In this document: piece after piece, positions 32,111 to 40,431 of the stretch
How the letters are laid out: every line of letters starts with the position of its first letter
How positions within the stretch are numbered: the first letter of the stretch is position 1
Origin: Fibrobacter succinogenes
Lineage (GTDB): Bacteria; Fibrobacterota; Fibrobacteria; Fibrobacterales; Fibrobacteraceae
Length of the DNA stretch: 45,903 nt
Direction of reading: 5' to 3'
Assembly (NCBI GenBank): GCA_902762795.1
Contig: CACWPM010000028.1
Location: 1 to 45,903 of the forward strand
Program-made: the position numbers and the translations under genes
Notes under the pieces: generated by a model
The model's database searches: none
Seen by the model: the letters and a program-made list of their open reading frames with translations, nothing else
Told to the model about the DNA's origin: nothing

Positions 32111-32161
32111 TTTTAAGTTTTGTAATTTAAAAATCAAAAAAACAACAAAAGGATGCACATT

Positions 32162-35100
32162 ATGATTAAGCAATCATTGAAAGTTGCCTCGCTCGCTGTC
32201 CTCGGCTTGAGCGTTACAGCTGCAATGGCTCAGCCGAAACGTCCGCATCTGGCTGTGTACAAGTTCTTCGATGAACAGTACCGTCCGGGTGGATACGATT
32301 ACTCTTATGGCGGCAAGAGCAAGGGTGTCACAATTACCAAGGATGGCGGTTACAAGTCCAAGGCCGCCCTCAACATCAAGTTGGACCCGAAGGAATACTC
32401 CGGTGCGTCCATTTGCCTTTACAACGAATTCTTCGACTTGAACAAGTACATGCTTGATTCCAAGGTCGAATTCATGATCAAGGGCAAGAACGGTGGCGAA
32501 GCCGTGAAGGTCGGTCTCCTCGACGAAGAAGTTTCTGACGGCAAGAAGACTCAGGTCGTTCTTCCGATGAACAAGTACATCGAAGGCGGCGCCATAACGA
32601 AGGATTGGAAGAAGGTTTCCATTCCTCTCGTGGACTTCCCGGACCGTGGTCTCTACTGGGACAACACCCGCAAGTCCGAATTCCCGTCTCGTATCGACTG
32701 GGACAAGATTGCTGAAATCCGTTTCTCCATTGACAAGAGCGCTGCAAGCGAATTCGAAGTCTGGGTGGACAACATCGAAATCGTGAAGGGCAACAAGAAG
32801 GCTGCCCCGAAGAAGCAGATGGTCTACTGGGACGAAAACAACGATGTCATCGACGGTCCGAAGAATCCGGAAAAGCTCGATGGCAAGGCAAAGACTCTCG
32901 CAACGTTCTATGACAACCAGGTCAAGGGTTTCTCTTACAGCTACGGTGGTCTCACCGCTCAGCGTGAAGCTCAGTCCAAGACTCCGGGCAACAAGAACGT
33001 GCTTGCCATGTACATCGACAACAACGACTGGTCCGGTGTGACCTACTCTCTTGGTGAAGGCAAGTTCATCGACCTCTCCAAGGTGCGTAACAAGGGTGGT
33101 CTCTACTTCTGGATCAAGGGTAAGCTCGGCGGCGAAAAGCTCTATGTCGGTATCCTTGATAACCAGGGCAACGACGTGAAGAGCCAGACCAAGCTTGGCC
33201 TCAATGACTGGATCAAGGTCTCCAAGGACTGGCAGCTCGTCAAGATTCCTCTGAAGCGCTTCATGGACAAGGGCAAGGCTTGGGACGCTAACAAGCAGGC
33301 CGAAGTCGCGAAGGACGTGCAGTGGAACAAGATCCAGGAAATCCGTTTCTCTGTCGGTAAGGGCGAAAACCAGGGCGAACCGGGCAAGCCGGCTCCTGTG
33401 ACTGTCTTTGTCGATCAGATTACGTTTACCGAAAACATTGACTGGGTTGACCCGGATCTCAAGTGGGATTCCTTCAAGTCCAACGCTCCGGATCTCGTCA
33501 TTACGGACTTCGAAAGCAAGTTCGCTAAGGACAAGTGGGAACCTTCTACGGGTCCGAAGTCTCAGCTCAAGTTCAAGGTTGAAAACTGCCCCGAATTCAA
33601 GAGCAACTGCTTGAACATCGAACACTACCTCCTCGCCGACTGGGTCGATGTGGTGTTTGACATGAAGAAGACTGGCCGCCCGGCAACGGATCGCGACTGG
33701 ACAAAGCACTGGGGCATCATGTTCGATGTCTATTCCGAAAAGGCTTGGCAGTCCATTACCGTCCAGGTGCAGGATGCAGGCAACGAAATCTTCGTTTCCA
33801 ACGTCGGTGCTCCGAAGGGCAAGACGACCCTCCTCGTTCCGTTCCGCACCTTCGGCAAGTTCCCGTACTATCAGCCGCCTGAGGCTGTCGAAAACGGCAT
33901 CTTTGACCTCAAGGGTGTAGTCAACCTCGACTTCAAGCCGAGTGGCGAAGGTACTGCCGGTGGCTTCAAGATTGATAACGTCCGCTTGACCAACCAGCGT
34001 GAAGTGAAGGCCAAGGAACGTCCGGCTGTCATCAAGGTCGTGGTGAAGGGCGAAAAGGATGTCCTCAACCCGAATATCTCTGGTGGCTTGTTCGGTATCA
34101 ACGCTGCCCTCTGGGATGGCGACATGCTCGACAACAAGAACTTCAAGGTTCAGACTCGTGAATTTGCAAAGCGCATCAACCACGGCATTATCCGTTATCC
34201 GGGTGGTCTCCGTGCTGATGACGACCACTGGAAGGAAATCCTCGACAACCACGACTGGATGGTCGATACCGACGAATTCCTCGAATGGTTGAAGAAGACT
34301 GGCAGTAACGCTATGTTCACCGTGAACTTCGGTTCTGGCACGGAACAGGAAGCCGCAGCCTGGGTCAAGCACACGAACGTTGACAAGAAGGCCGGCATCC
34401 TCTACTGGGAAATCGGTAACGAAGTCTATGGTAACTGGCATCCGTACTACGAAAAGTATGGTAAGGATGGCGGTACCATCTATGGTAAGCGTGCTCGCAA
34501 GTTCATCGAAGCCATGAAGAAAGTGGATCCGTCCATCAAGGTGGCTGTGCTCGGTGTTCTCGAAGGCGACTGGAATGACAAGGTTCTCGCCGAAACGGGT
34601 GACATCGCTGATGGTCTCATTGTTCACCACTACCCGCAGCACTTCGGTGAAGAAAACGACTTCGCTTTGCTATCCGCTCCGCAGACGCTCACTGCTATCT
34701 ACGAACGCTTGCACAAGGTCGTTGACAAGTGGACTTCCAAGTTCAACAAGGACAAGAAGATTGAACTCTGGCTCACCGAATGGAACTCTGTTGACTTCAA
34801 CCCGGGCCCGCAGACTCTCTCTGTCGAAAACGGCTTGTTCGTCGCTGACTACCTCGGTATGCTCGCTACTGAAAACGTCGATAACGCTCAGTACTGGGAC
34901 ATCCACAACGACATCACTCCGGAAGGCGGTGACTACGGTTACTTGACCCGTTCCGGTGAAGACTGCATGAACTGCCCGCGTCCGAGCTACTGGGCTTTCC
35001 AGATGGCTTCCGACGCTCTCCGCGGCAAGCTCATGAAGACCACCATCAAGGGCGACGAAGACGCTCTCCTCACGGCCTACTGGACCGAGAACGGCAACAA

Positions 35101-35323
35101 GAAGCAGTTGCTCCTCGTGAACAAGAGCCCGTATAGCGACTTCGACATCAAGCTCGATATCCCGGGCTTCAAGGGCAAGGCCAGCGTCCAGACTCTCGAC
35201 AAGAGTTCCGAAAAGCTCAAGGAAGGCTGGGCAAACGATCCGTCCAAGAAGGCTAAGACTGTCGATATCACGAAGGGTATCAAGGTCGGCAAGCGCACCC
35301 TTACTCTCATCACTTTGAACTAA
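32162..35323 (+). CDS. GH51 endoglucanase with N-terminal carbohydrate-binding modules (EGF/Cel51A-like)
   Basis: This protein has 1053 residues from MIKQ; AAAGG lies 9 nt upstream and an in-frame ATG at 32153 abuts it, so the second ATG is chosen. The signal peptide ends AAMA before QPKRPH. Two related beta-sandwich modules of CBM11-like type follow: about 30-215 with FRLSIDKSA-like strands ending VWVDNIEIV, and about 240-425 ending VFVDQITF. A third module (about 440-620) ends FKIDNVRLT. The GH51 (beta/alpha)8 domain follows, with acid/base E754 in EIGNEVYGNW and nucleophile E873 in LWLTEWNSV, then a C-terminal beta domain. It likely cuts cellulose or xylan at the cell surface. The match to F. 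succinogenes EGF is from memory. Codon use is strongly biased, suggesting high expression. Confidence 0.88.
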   Translation: MIKQSLKVASLAVLGLSVTAAMAQPKRPHLAVYKFFDEQYRPGGYDYSYGGKSKGVTITKDGGYKSKAALNIKLDPKEYSGASICLYNEFFDLNKYMLDSKVEFMIKGKNGGEAVKVGLLDEEVSDGKKTQVVLPMNKYIEGGAITKDWKKVSIPLVDFPDRGLYWDNTRKSEFPSRIDWDKIAEIRFSIDKSAASEFEVWVDNIEIVKGNKKAAPKKQMVYWDENNDVIDGPKNPEKLDGKAKTLATFYDNQVKGFSYSYGGLTAQREAQSKTPGNKNVLAMYIDNNDWSGVTYSLGEGKFIDLSKVRNKGGLYFWIKGKLGGEKLYVGILDNQGNDVKSQTKLGLNDWIKVSKDWQLVKIPLKRFMDKGKAWDANKQAEVAKDVQWNKIQEIRFSVGKGENQGEPGKPAPVTVFVDQITFTENIDWVDPDLKWDSFKSNAPDLVITDFESKFAKDKWEPSTGPKSQLKFKVENCPEFKSNCLNIEHYLLADWVDVVFDMKKTGRPATDRDWTKHWGIMFDVYSEKAWQSITVQVQDAGNEIFVSNVGAPKGKTTLLVPFRTFGKFPYYQPPEAVENGIFDLKGVVNLDFKPSGEGTAGGFKIDNVRLTNQREVKAKERPAVIKVVVKGEKDVLNPNISGGLFGINAALWDGDMLDNKNFKVQTREFAKRINHGIIRYPGGLRADDDHWKEILDNHDWMVDTDEFLEWLKKTGSNAMFTVNFGSGTEQEAAAWVKHTNVDKKAGILYWEIGNEVYGNWHPYYEKYGKDGGTIYGKRARKFIEAMKKVDPSIKVAVLGVLEGDWNDKVLAETGDIADGLIVHHYPQHFGEENDFALLSAPQTLTAIYERLHKVVDKWTSKFNKDKKIELWLTEWNSVDFNPGPQTLSVENGLFVADYLGMLATENVDNAQYWDIHNDITPEGGDYGYLTRSGEDCMNCPRPSYWAFQMASDALRGKLMKTTIKGDEDALLTAYWTENGNKKQLLLVNKSPYSDFDIKLDIPGFKGKASVQTLDKSSEKLKEGWANDPSKKAKTVDITKGIKVGKRTLTLITLN

Positions 35324-35365
35324 GTGAATTAGGGTTCGTGAACTAGATTTTCGAAATCTTGAAAA

Positions 35366-35397
35366 GGACTCCGCCGAAAGGCGGAGTTCTTTTTTTG
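35366..35397 (+). terminator. Intrinsic terminator after the GH51 gene
   Basis: The stem ACTCCGCC/GGCGGAGT (35368-35375, 35380-35387) has a GAAA loop, followed by TCTTTTTTTG. Confidence 0.9.
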
Positions 35398-35466
35398 CGT
35401 AATCTTGGAAATGTGGATTTAGATGTGTGGCGGATGATGTGTGGAGAACTTTGTACGATGTGGTTT

Positions 35467-35854
35467 TTACGTACTTTGGAGTGAAAAAATCCGTGTGTAG
35501 TACGTAAATTGAAATTGCTTAATTTGTGTGTTACGTACATGAGGGTGGAAATCGTGGATTTAGTACGTAATTTTCACAATTTTATGTGTGAAAAAAGCGA
35601 AATTTCGGTCATTTATTGCTTTAAAGTCCTTTGAAAATCGATTTTGTGCATGTTTTTTTCGTTTTTTACGTACTAAGAGCTTCAAATTATGTTTCGCAGT
35701 ACGTAAGCAATGAAACTTGAGCATTTTAAATTCCGTTTTTACGTACTAAGAGCTTCAAATTATGTTTCGCAGTACGTAAGCAATGAAACTTGAGCATTTT
35801 AAATTCCGTTTTTACGTACTTAGATGCATAAATTAAGTTTTTGAAGTACGTAAA
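35467..35854. repeat. Array of five TTACGTACT...AGTACGTAA inverted repeats, with a 73-bp tandem duplication
   Basis: Ten TACGTA hexamers (35468, 35501, 35532, 35564, 35667, 35700, 35740, 35773, 35813, 35847) form five dyads. Each dyad has 8-9-bp arms (longer in the last) and a 23- to 24-nt spacer. Bases 35663-35735 and 35736-35808 are a perfect 73-bp tandem repeat, and a diverged third copy follows. The first two dyads have different spacer sequences but the same arms. A dyad-sized gap with no match lies between dyads 2 and 3. The 35398-35853 gap holds no gene. The array ends 42 nt before the start codon of the next gene. Confidence 0.9.
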
Positions 35855-35895: not shown

Positions 35896-37236
35896 ATGCG
35901 GGTTAATTTTGATCATATGATGGTTTCGATTGGTGTGCGCGTTTTTTCATCGAGCGCATTTCTTGTTTTGCTTTTGTTTGGCTCCTTGTTTGCTTCGGAA
36001 AAATCACTTGATGACGCATCTGAAAAAACAGCGGATAGCGTTCATCTACATGACGTGATGGATTTGTTCGTGCAGAACCCTCATATTGCAACCCCGCAGG
36101 ATTCCTTGAAAGTGAAATCCGTAACGGGTTATGTCGATACGTCCGCACATTTTGATTGGCCGCTGGGCTTTGAAACCAGCTCGCAAAAAGAACGTAACGA
36201 GTCCAAACAATTCCGTGCAGCTATAGCGAAAGCTTTGGATGAAGAACGTTACGATGACTTGAAAATGATTATGAAGGATGTTGAAGCTTATGAACGGACG
36301 GCTCAGATTTATCCTGTTTTTTATGCTAATGACAAGCTTGTCCTTCAATACTTTTTAAAGAATTTTGATTACCTGAGCCATGTGGATTCAATTAAAGTGG
36401 TACCGGAGTTCGGTTTTTACAATGACGAATTCCAAGGGATTCTGTACGGCAAACTGCGAAAACATATAGAGCTCGGGACGCTTGATTCTAATCTCAAAAA
36501 AGTAGAAAATGAAAGCGACCGCACATTCATTTATATTATTCTAAATAGCTTGTTTGTGCCCAAAGAACATGTTTCATCGATGATCGAAAAATACAAGTAC
36601 CAATTGACCGATGAGCAACAACTGTTTTTCTTGGTCAAGCATTTTTGGCATAAAGAAGATTATGATTCAAAAAATTACGGGGCGTTTTCTTGGGGTGGGG
36701 CTGTTATAAAGTCTTTCGGTCGTTTGTCGGATAAAATCGGATTAAGCCCTGGAATGTATCTTGGCATTGACTTCGTTCGCAAGGATTTTCTGTACGAATG
36801 GTTTATGGATATCAACGGTTGCCAAAATAAGGAACAGGATTCCTTGCAGTTTTACGATATGCGGTGGGATTTTAATTTTGGCTACACGTTCTTAAAAAAA
36901 GATCATTTGAACTTGTTTGGCTATGTTACTGCGGGTTTTGGTCTGAATGGACTTAGCGCTCGAGGAAAAGATTCTAACGACAAGGCGAATAAGGATTTGC
37001 CAACTCAGTTCAGTTCGGCTTTTGGAACGGGGGTGATGGTGGATGTGTTCTTTACAGAAAAAGACCATGTACATCACGGACTTCGCTTTAGGACTGGTGT
37101 GAGGAGCCTTTTTTCGGGAGATGTCCTGAGAACGTCCGGTGTTAGGTTGTATGCATCTCTTGAATGGACGTTCCGGGAGTATACTAAAAAGCCTGTTGAT
37201 TTTGACTTTTCGTTCAGAGAAAAGGGGGTGAAATGA
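35896..37236 (+). CDS. Unknown envelope protein, paralog of the 40446 gene
   Basis: This protein has 446 residues from MRVNFDHMM, chosen because the paralog starts MRV at the same distance from a TGTATATT box; the frame is open back to 35854. The signal peptide is near FLVLLLFGSLFA (cut before SEKS). A helical, acidic middle (about 100-260) contains ESDRTFIYIILNSLF, which is shared with the paralog (ESDRTFILIILNSFF). The C-terminal third has barrel-like strands (FNFGYTFLKKDHLNLFGYVTAGFG, LRFRTGVRS and VRLYASLEWTF) and also aligns with the paralog to the end. It is probably an outer-membrane anchored protein with a periplasmic helical domain. Its stop overlaps the next start (ATGA). I do not recognise the family. 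Confidence 0.65.
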   Translation: MRVNFDHMMVSIGVRVFSSSAFLVLLLFGSLFASEKSLDDASEKTADSVHLHDVMDLFVQNPHIATPQDSLKVKSVTGYVDTSAHFDWPLGFETSSQKERNESKQFRAAIAKALDEERYDDLKMIMKDVEAYERTAQIYPVFYANDKLVLQYFLKNFDYLSHVDSIKVVPEFGFYNDEFQGILYGKLRKHIELGTLDSNLKKVENESDRTFIYIILNSLFVPKEHVSSMIEKYKYQLTDEQQLFFLVKHFWHKEDYDSKNYGAFSWGGAVIKSFGRLSDKIGLSPGMYLGIDFVRKDFLYEWFMDINGCQNKEQDSLQFYDMRWDFNFGYTFLKKDHLNLFGYVTAGFGLNGLSARGKDSNDKANKDLPTQFSSAFGTGVMVDVFFTEKDHVHHGLRFRTGVRSLFSGDVLRTSGVRLYASLEWTFREYTKKPVDFDFSFREKGVK

Positions 37237-38840
37237 TGGTTCGTCGATTATTCCTGTTCCTTTTGGTCATGGCATCCCTTTCTTTTGCTGGGCGATATGT
37301 CACGTATAATATCGTTCTTTCCGATTCTTCTGTGGGTTTTTCTCAATCGCAGACGGTTGCGCAAAAACTGCAAACGGCCCCGGTTGCATATTACGGGAGC
37401 CTTATACAAAGAAAATATTTGCAGAAGGAATTTTATGAATTGGAGAATGCGGAATTCGAACAAAAATTTCCGCGTGTTTATGAGTCCTTTCTCGGTTGGT
37501 CCAACTATAAGCTGAAACGCCAGAATGAACTTTTGTCACGGGCTCCGGAACAATACCAGAAAATGTTTGAGCAACGCTATGCTTCGATGGGGGTAAAAGG
37601 CTTTTTCTTGATCCACGATGAAATCCGTGTAGATAAAGTCTATGACAAGGCAACCAAGACATGGGTAACGCCCAAGCCCGAAGACGCAAAGAAAGAACTG
37701 TTTTCCTTTGCGTATGTCGGGCCGGATATTTCCCAGGATTCTTCGTGGAAAATTTCCCAAAGAATGATGGTGCTTTTGCCCAAGTCCGAAGACAAGTTGA
37801 AGCCGGTCAAGAGAATTTTTTTCATGGACGGTTATTCAGAAGAGTGCTATTCCTTGATGGATACATCGATTCTTGAAAAAATTCATTACTTTCCGCATCG
37901 TTTGAAGTATGATGTGAAACCGACTGCCGCGATGTCAGCTCGTGAAAAAATGCAAGCTTTTGTTGAAACCGGCGATTACGCATCTGCGGGTGCTCTAGCG
38001 GAATCTGCGGATTTGTCGCCTCGTTCAAAAATTCTTATGAAAATTTTGAACCGCAATTATGGTTTCATCGTGAATAGCGATTCAATGGGGCGCTATCTCG
38101 ATGAATATAACAGTTTCTTTTATTCCGATAGCTTGGACGAGACTTTAGATAAAGCGGTCGTGCGCGAATACACGGAGAATAAATATTGCAATTCCTTGCG
38201 AAACGTTCCAAATATCGATGAAAATGATGTTTGTAGAGTGGTTAGAAAGGTCGCTTTAAAAGAATTCCCGGAGCCGGTCGTTAATAGTGTGAGTCCTTTT
38301 AGATTCCATGCTTATGCCGATTTTGGGCGACCGTTCTTAGTCGGCGATTTCCCTGATTTTGATCCTGTGTTTTATTTAGGTTTTGGTTTTAATTTTTATT
38401 TAGGCGACTTGTTTGGCGGAATCGGGCTGAGCATCCGCAAATTGGACGCCAAGTGCGATTCCTGCGGCACGGGGGATTTTGGTGCGCATGTTGAGATTGG
38501 ATATTTATGGTTGAAAAGGGATTATATTGAAAGCGGCGTTTGGGGAAATCTCGGATTCGCGGCGATCGAAATTCCACCGCAAAAAGGTGTCGCCGATTCG
38601 GAATACCAACATGAGCGCTATTTCCGTTATGGTTTTGGTGTTTACGTTGAGGCTCTTTTCCCGAAACTTGTCGGGAAACCTCTTAATAGCTTCTTTGAAC
38701 GGGGAATAGGAAACCGTTTTGGCGTGCGTCTAAAGCTTGGTATGCAGAATATTAAAATTTCGGATATCGGTCATGCAAATGGACTTTCTCCGTTTGTTTC
38801 GCTTGGTTTTTCATGGCATTGCATGGGTGTGCGAAACTAG
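37233..38840 (+). CDS. Unknown secreted or outer-membrane protein
   Basis: This 535-residue protein is translationally coupled to the gene before it through an ATGA overlap (37233-37236). The signal peptide MMVRRLFLFLLVMASLSFA is cut before GRYVTY. The first 340 residues are mixed alpha/beta with many charged residues and no motif I know. From about residue 345 the sequence turns to barrel-like strands (FRFHAYADFGRPF, DPVFYLGFGFNFYLGDLFGGIGLSI and GAHVEIGYLWL), and the protein ends SLGFSWHCMGVRN. Cys pairs near CDSCGTGD could form a surface disulfide. With its neighbour it may form a two-protein envelope complex. No terminator for this strand is evident before the tRNA genes. Confidence 0.6.
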   Translation: MMVRRLFLFLLVMASLSFAGRYVTYNIVLSDSSVGFSQSQTVAQKLQTAPVAYYGSLIQRKYLQKEFYELENAEFEQKFPRVYESFLGWSNYKLKRQNELLSRAPEQYQKMFEQRYASMGVKGFFLIHDEIRVDKVYDKATKTWVTPKPEDAKKELFSFAYVGPDISQDSSWKISQRMMVLLPKSEDKLKPVKRIFFMDGYSEECYSLMDTSILEKIHYFPHRLKYDVKPTAAMSAREKMQAFVETGDYASAGALAESADLSPRSKILMKILNRNYGFIVNSDSMGRYLDEYNSFFYSDSLDETLDKAVVREYTENKYCNSLRNVPNIDENDVCRVVRKVALKEFPEPVVNSVSPFRFHAYADFGRPFLVGDFPDFDPVFYLGFGFNFYLGDLFGGIGLSIRKLDAKCDSCGTGDFGAHVEIGYLWLKRDYIESGVWGNLGFAAIEIPPQKGVADSEYQHERYFRYGFGVYVEALFPKLVGKPLNSFFERGIGNRFGVRLKLGMQNIKISDIGHANGLSPFVSLGFSWHCMGVRN

Positions 38841-40372: not shown

Positions 40373-40431
40373 AGAAACTATGTCTTGTATGGCAGTTGCT
40401 GTGAAATGCGAACTTTACGTTTTGTAAACTT

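Follow-up and report, generated by a model that had tools for sequence, protein, structure and literature searches.

A Fibrobacter array of helically phased inverted repeats is one of many dispersed intergenic elements with a probable cognate protein family

The array of inverted repeats upstream of an exported-protein gene in Fibrobacter succinogenes is one of dozens of similar intergenic elements, not the operator of a single gene. It lies in a stretch of 45,903 nucleotides (contig CACWPM010000028.1, here called the window). Comparison across genomes shows that such arrays are paired with a family of proteins, which we call ArrX, and each member is very probably the cognate reader of the arms beside its own gene. 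Neither ArrX nor the arrays are described in the open-access literature that we searched.

The window array and its surroundings comprise the following parts.

35367–35396, plus strand: likely intrinsic terminator of the gene at 32153–35323, seen in the sequence
35467–35507, no strand: dyad 1, TTACGTACT-N23-AGTACGTAA, exact match, conserved in RUG14562
35517–35530, minus strand: conserved second motif CACACAAATTAAGC (AYAAANTAA class) in the linker of dyads 1 and 2, which sets the orientation of the element
35531–35570, no strand: dyad 2, TTACGTACA-N22-AGTACGTAA, one arm mismatch
35571–35665, no strand: gap of about 95 bp separating the two halves of the element; arm to arm 104 bp, or ten turns
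35666–35706, no strand: dyad 3, exact match
35739–35779, no strand: dyad 4, exact match
35812–35853, no strand: dyad 5, N24, exact match, ending 42 bp 5′ of the ATG at 35896
35896–37236, plus strand: exported-protein gene adjoining the array, the longest open reading frame from 35854

The five dyads that the preliminary description placed between 35467 and 35854 are real, four of them being exact matches to TTACGTACT-N23/24-AGTACGTAA (none in 100 dinucleotide shuffles) and the fifth carrying one arm mismatch; their spacers, given there as 23–24 nt, span 22–24 nt. Two of the three 73-bp units (35666–35738 and 35739–35811) are identical, as described, and the third is partly alike only. Because the RUG14562 counterpart has four dyads, one of these units was probably gained through recent tandem duplication. 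The array starts about 70 bp past the likely terminator and abuts a promoter-like region, which is present in RUG14562 too. The only Rfam matches fall far below the gathering score and lie on the terminator, with no family inside the array; one is a BSnc120 match to the terminator hairpin (35344–35403, minus strand; 28.6 bits against a gathering score of 114) that is probably due to chance. The adjoining exported-protein gene does not define the array, and its homologue at the RUG14562 array is 32% identical. The gene pair at 35896–38840 is fast-evolving (homologues at the RUG14562 array 32% and 47% identical), unlike the upstream gene at 32153–35323 (94–97%). Around the paralogous gene at 40431 there are no arms, as had been noted.

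Similar dyads are dispersed through the genome. The 3.93-Mb draft holds 38 exact TTACGTACT dyads, compared with none for a reversed control, and 53 dyads with N23 and up to three mismatches, compared with three. The TTACGTACT dyads are grouped in at least 15 clusters of three to five between unrelated genes. For three arm types, 34 arrays of this genome were examined: 16 sit in tandem, 10 in convergent and 7 in divergent gaps, one is unclassified, and 32 of the 34 overlap no open reading frame of 150 or more amino acids. We therefore reject a gene-specific operator of the 35896 gene: the dyad is not limited to that gene family, and arrays in convergent gaps have no promoter to serve. The separate control of one gene copy that had been proposed falls with it, as the arrays, dispersed between unrelated genes, track their cognate ArrX instead. 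The preliminary description had itself named scatter away from the gene family as telling against its reading, and such scatter is what we see; conservation of arms and spacing in close relatives, which it also asked about, is borne out below. Its interpretation is partly supported.

Thirteen pairwise alignments of orthologous arrays, covering nine places in RUG14562, RUG13674 and this genome, reveal selection on the arms, which had been suspected from the single array. Arm positions are identical in 870 of 891 cases (97.6%) as against 2815 of 4349 (64.7%) in the remainder, and spacing is preserved. Over 143 distinct dyads, the information content of the arms approaches 2 bits per position. 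No particular sequence is kept in the 23-bp spacer, yet it follows an AT/GC rhythm of about 11 bp (131 spacers), with an AT fraction of 0.88 beside the arm, 0.31–0.37 at 5–7 bases off centre and 0.93–0.95 at the centre, mirrored on the two sides. Distances between dyads of about 63, 74, 85, 95, 136, 147, 157 and 168 bp correspond to whole DNA turns; the distinct distances fit a period of 10.4–10.5 bp, and this phasing was matched in 0 of 5000 random draws. Complementarity across the spacer is at or below the permuted level in 131 dyads, the 9-bp arms alone being able to pair. Because near-invariant arms and whole-turn spacing occur together with an AT rhythm and no complementarity, we read the array as a bent duplex that would carry a protein oligomer on one face, rather than as an RNA or a methylation target. 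Of the cooperative regulator that had been suggested, the cooperatively binding protein thus survives as the best reading and the gene-specific control does not.

In Fibrobacter the spacers vary while the inverted arms stay constant, which recalls CRISPR, with its repeated units, and could suggest that hairpin or guide RNAs are made from the array in a CRISPR- or TIGR-like manner. We consider this very improbable, given the whole-turn phasing, the lack of complementarity across spacers, the lack of an Rfam match in the array and the near-identical spacers of related Firmicute arrays; for the same reasons the RNA hairpins put forward earlier are not borne out. CRISPR–Cas, as direct repeats with non-repeated spacers, was considered and rejected: the units here are inverted 9-bp arms at whole-turn spacing, with spacers that are repeated in Firmicutes. 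No cas genes were noticed near the window array. No more credence attaches to a methylation-sensitive switch. The arms of this type do contain the self-complementary TACGTA and GTAC on which that proposal was built, but other ArrX types have non-palindromic arms (TGGACTCC, AAGGACTA and GTATCGGT among them) with the architecture unchanged, so that it does not hold in general.

Beyond the arms, arrays share a second motif, AYAAANTAA, whatever their arm type: it was found 21 times in 20 dispersed arrays (3.2 expected) and 26 times in 15 gene-linked arrays with other arms (3.4 expected). They also share fixed layouts, including 63-95-85 and 63-136-63 bp. The first is common to L019 and L080, and 95-85 bp to L082 and L085, the arms being quite different; the 95/85 layout is common to gene-linked and dispersed arrays.

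The protein partner is encoded at L019:6383–7213, a gene for a protein of 276 aa that is flanked on both sides by copies of the array. Its orthologues in RUG13674 and RUG14562 are 76–77% identical and likewise lie between two arrays, so that all three Fibrobacter genomes rich in these arrays have an array-flanked ArrX. ArrX has no credible Pfam match, no NCBIfam match above cut-off and no sequence relative in the PDB. Its C-terminal half is matched by the PADLOC PDC-S68 profiles (E = 1e-22), and one member alone weakly matches the phrog_945 endonuclease profile (E = 5e-4). Across 36 homologues at about 30% identity the motifs RSKSE, YE.P, PDF and wEH.G are nearly invariant; E170, E219 and H220 are invariant and D204 is kept in at least 90%, the K position not being conserved as K. 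From these motifs and weak profile matches we infer a PD-(D/E)XK-like nuclease fold for the C-terminal domain. ArrX-family matches occur in 29 of 41 Fibrobacter genomes and in 23 of 116 genomes from the order of a rumen Lachnospiraceae metagenome-assembled genome (MAG), some of these having partial or larger matches only; one genome of that order (G106) has about 21 ArrX-like matches. Plasmids gave partial matches only, to larger AAA/RecQ-type proteins. A viral origin was rejected, no relative having been found in the viral_contigs set. A 4.2-kb record from human faeces labelled ‘Bacteriophage sp.’ (MT839528.1, 380–1117) encodes an ArrX relative of 30% identity.

Pairing of protein and array extends across the family. 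Among 41 ArrX copies, which come from several genomes of Fibrobacter and of rumen Firmicutes, most have at least two and up to 12 dyads of their own within 700 bp, where shuffled flanks usually gave one; a few copies have no array within that distance. The arms differ from copy to copy (CGTACCTATA, ATGCATATA, TGTTACCA, TGCTACAA, TTACGGAA, TGGACTCC, AAGGACTA, GTATCGGT, TATACGCC and others). Dispersed arrays are known for three arm types, TTACGTACT, CGTACCTATA and TGYTACCA, each of which occurs together with its cognate ArrX and is essentially absent from tested genomes that do not have the cognate gene. The TTACGTACT arrays are abundant in G000, G001 and RUG14562 (G046, G062), all with an array-flanked ArrX, and were not found in any other Fibrobacter genome searched, save for one exact dyad in G024, where the array beside ArrX has the near-identical arm TTACGTACA. 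Dyads of CGTACCTATA occur in G000, G046 and G019, all with that ArrX type, and number zero in G001 and G004. The TGYTACCA pattern has 26 matches in G000 and 38 in G046, compared with five in G001 and two in G004; in the latter two genomes the orthologous ArrX at the TGYTACCA-type locus has TGCTACAA arms, and the few matches are mostly its own arms. Other types appear not to have dispersed: for the TATACGCC type no dispersed copies were found beyond its own array, and for the GTATCGKT type there is one extra dyad.

Arm recognition appears to change quickly between orthologues, since arms differ between L082 and L085 (ArrX 74% identical) and between L080 and L084 (71%). An ArrX gene beside a miaB-like gene marks a locus common to G000:C13, L082, L085, L088 and L093, with arms that differ by species. 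In Firmicutes, the spacers that go with the TTACGTACT arm are N21 or N22 and near-identical inside an array; in SIG293 the arrangement is one of tandem 53-bp units. Firmicute ArrX copies with TTACGTACT-type arms (G041, G044 and G045) are 32–34% identical to the Fibrobacter type, so that the shared arm would have arisen by convergence or else be a very old one that was retained. TTACGTACT arrays are also present in G042, where the cognate ArrX was not identified.

One alternative takes ArrX proteins to be global transcription regulators, with dispersed arrays as operators of separate regulons and a nuclease-like domain that merely binds. The strong selection on arms and spacing would agree with this, as would the arrays upstream of ArrX genes themselves and the promoter region beside the window array and its RUG14562 counterpart. 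We nevertheless find it unlikely, although it is the alternative to which we give most weight: among the 33 classified arrays 10 are convergent, 7 divergent and 16 tandem, beside unrelated neighbours; residues of nuclease type are nearly invariant across about 30% identity; and arms vary between orthologous ArrX.

Comparison of related genomes also reveals presence and absence of arrays at single sites. RUG13674 has no array at three or more of the sites that carry one in G000, and G014 has none at the glgC site, which is filled in G000, G001 and RUG14562. The TGYTACCA elements are directional units of three dyads with a consensus common beyond the arms (non-arm identity of copies in G000 0.457, against 0.291 when shifted), and SIG293 arrays lie within multicopy repeats with common flanks of up to 340 bp at 91% identity. 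These three observations favour copying, by which the arrays have likely spread. Neither duplicated target sites nor exact insertion ends could be found, the flanks being too diverged. In RUG14562 (L031:3738–4463), most of one array is tandemly duplicated. We reject a cassette model for L173, where arrays flank a lipoprotein gene, for the second array at least: G001 lacks this array alone. On the 3′ side of glgC, several genomes (L121, L122, L041 and L014) have another dispersed Fibrobacter repeat, GAGGCGAGCGTCGCG...GCGCTTGAAAAGCGCAACGC.

Phased, wrapped-looking arrays with fixed 63-95-85 or 63-136-63 layouts, placed between genes whatever their direction, might also be chromosome-organising or segregation sites occupied by ArrX (insulators, looping sites or centromere-like sites). 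The distribution is patchy, however: one genome can have up to several orthogonal types and a close relative none, and we regard this role as quite improbable. Plasmid centromeres and operators with several phased sites present their repeats on a single face of the helix, which implies cooperative binding or wrapping. ArrX arrays are likewise phased on one face; they differ in lying genome-wide beside unrelated genes and in having a nuclease-like cognate protein.

The account we lean towards has four steps, which taken jointly we consider somewhat better than an even prospect. First, an ArrX of about 270 aa with a C-terminal PD-(D/E)XK-like nuclease domain would recognise its own arms of about 9 bp. 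Second, ArrX subunits would sit on one helix face at paired inverted arms three turns apart and bend the AT-rich middle of each spacer, forming a defined nucleoprotein complex with whatever reads AYAAANTAA. Comparative support for this predicted recognition and complex is strong. Third, the gene-linked array, a near-constant partner that probably serves autoregulation, would have been copied into intergenic gaps to give the dispersed set, a step supported by presence and absence and by the common architecture. Fourth, as purifying selection on the arms suggests, the dispersed copies would be kept since ArrX binding there matters. That ArrX binds directly, that it acts as a nuclease, how the arrays spread and what benefit preserves the arms are all predictions from sequence comparison. 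Selection on arms at fixed positions appears to exceed what a purely selfish element would need, which counts against the proposed chain, as do the TATACGCC type with no dispersed copies, the few ArrX copies with no array and the failure to find insertion ends or, in G042, a cognate ArrX.

A further possibility is that ArrX serves as a nuclease in conflict or defence, with its arrays as self-marks or sponges that restrain it. Its C-terminal half is homologous to the C-terminal domain of PDC-S68, a phage-defence candidate of about 1200 aa in PADLOC; close orthologues have different arms; and presence is patchy, with multicopy expansion. PDC-S68 is itself merely a candidate, and ArrX differs from it in being a stand-alone protein of about 270 aa with its own N-terminal region and arrays. 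We hold this reading to be doubtful, and think equally unlikely the related idea that species change arms and ArrX together as private orthogonal address systems, marking self against foreign DNA or rival elements.

The four-step account has its closest parallel in the REP-associated tyrosine transposases (RAYTs) and their REPINs, which are REP doublets (PMC3116915, PMC8049555). In both, a chromosomal protein gene lies beside its own inverted-repeat element, related elements are dispersed in extragenic DNA (with the exception here of TATACGCC, found in its own array only), and each protein has a separate repeat class, with protein–repeat coevolution and tandem clusters. RAYTs, however, are HUH (Y1) proteins, whereas 36 ArrX members gave no Y1 transposase Pfam match and have PD-(D/E)XK-like residues. 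REP doublets form hairpins, and ArrX elements are helically phased arrays of 9-bp arms without hairpin potential, whose arms persist at orthologous positions as the remainder drifts. The ArrX system also has several orthogonal types per genome and a second motif common to them. Since the layout matches and the protein family and hairpin structure do not, the ArrX system would at most work like RAYT/REPIN, not belong to it.

If this account is right, ArrX would be a protein family not described before, with dispersed DNA elements dedicated to it, and orthologues 71–74% identical that read different arms would offer a natural DNA-reading code useful for engineering specificity. It would also be a second, independent partnership of the RAYT/REPIN kind, which would make the question of why bacteria keep dispersed repeats testable.
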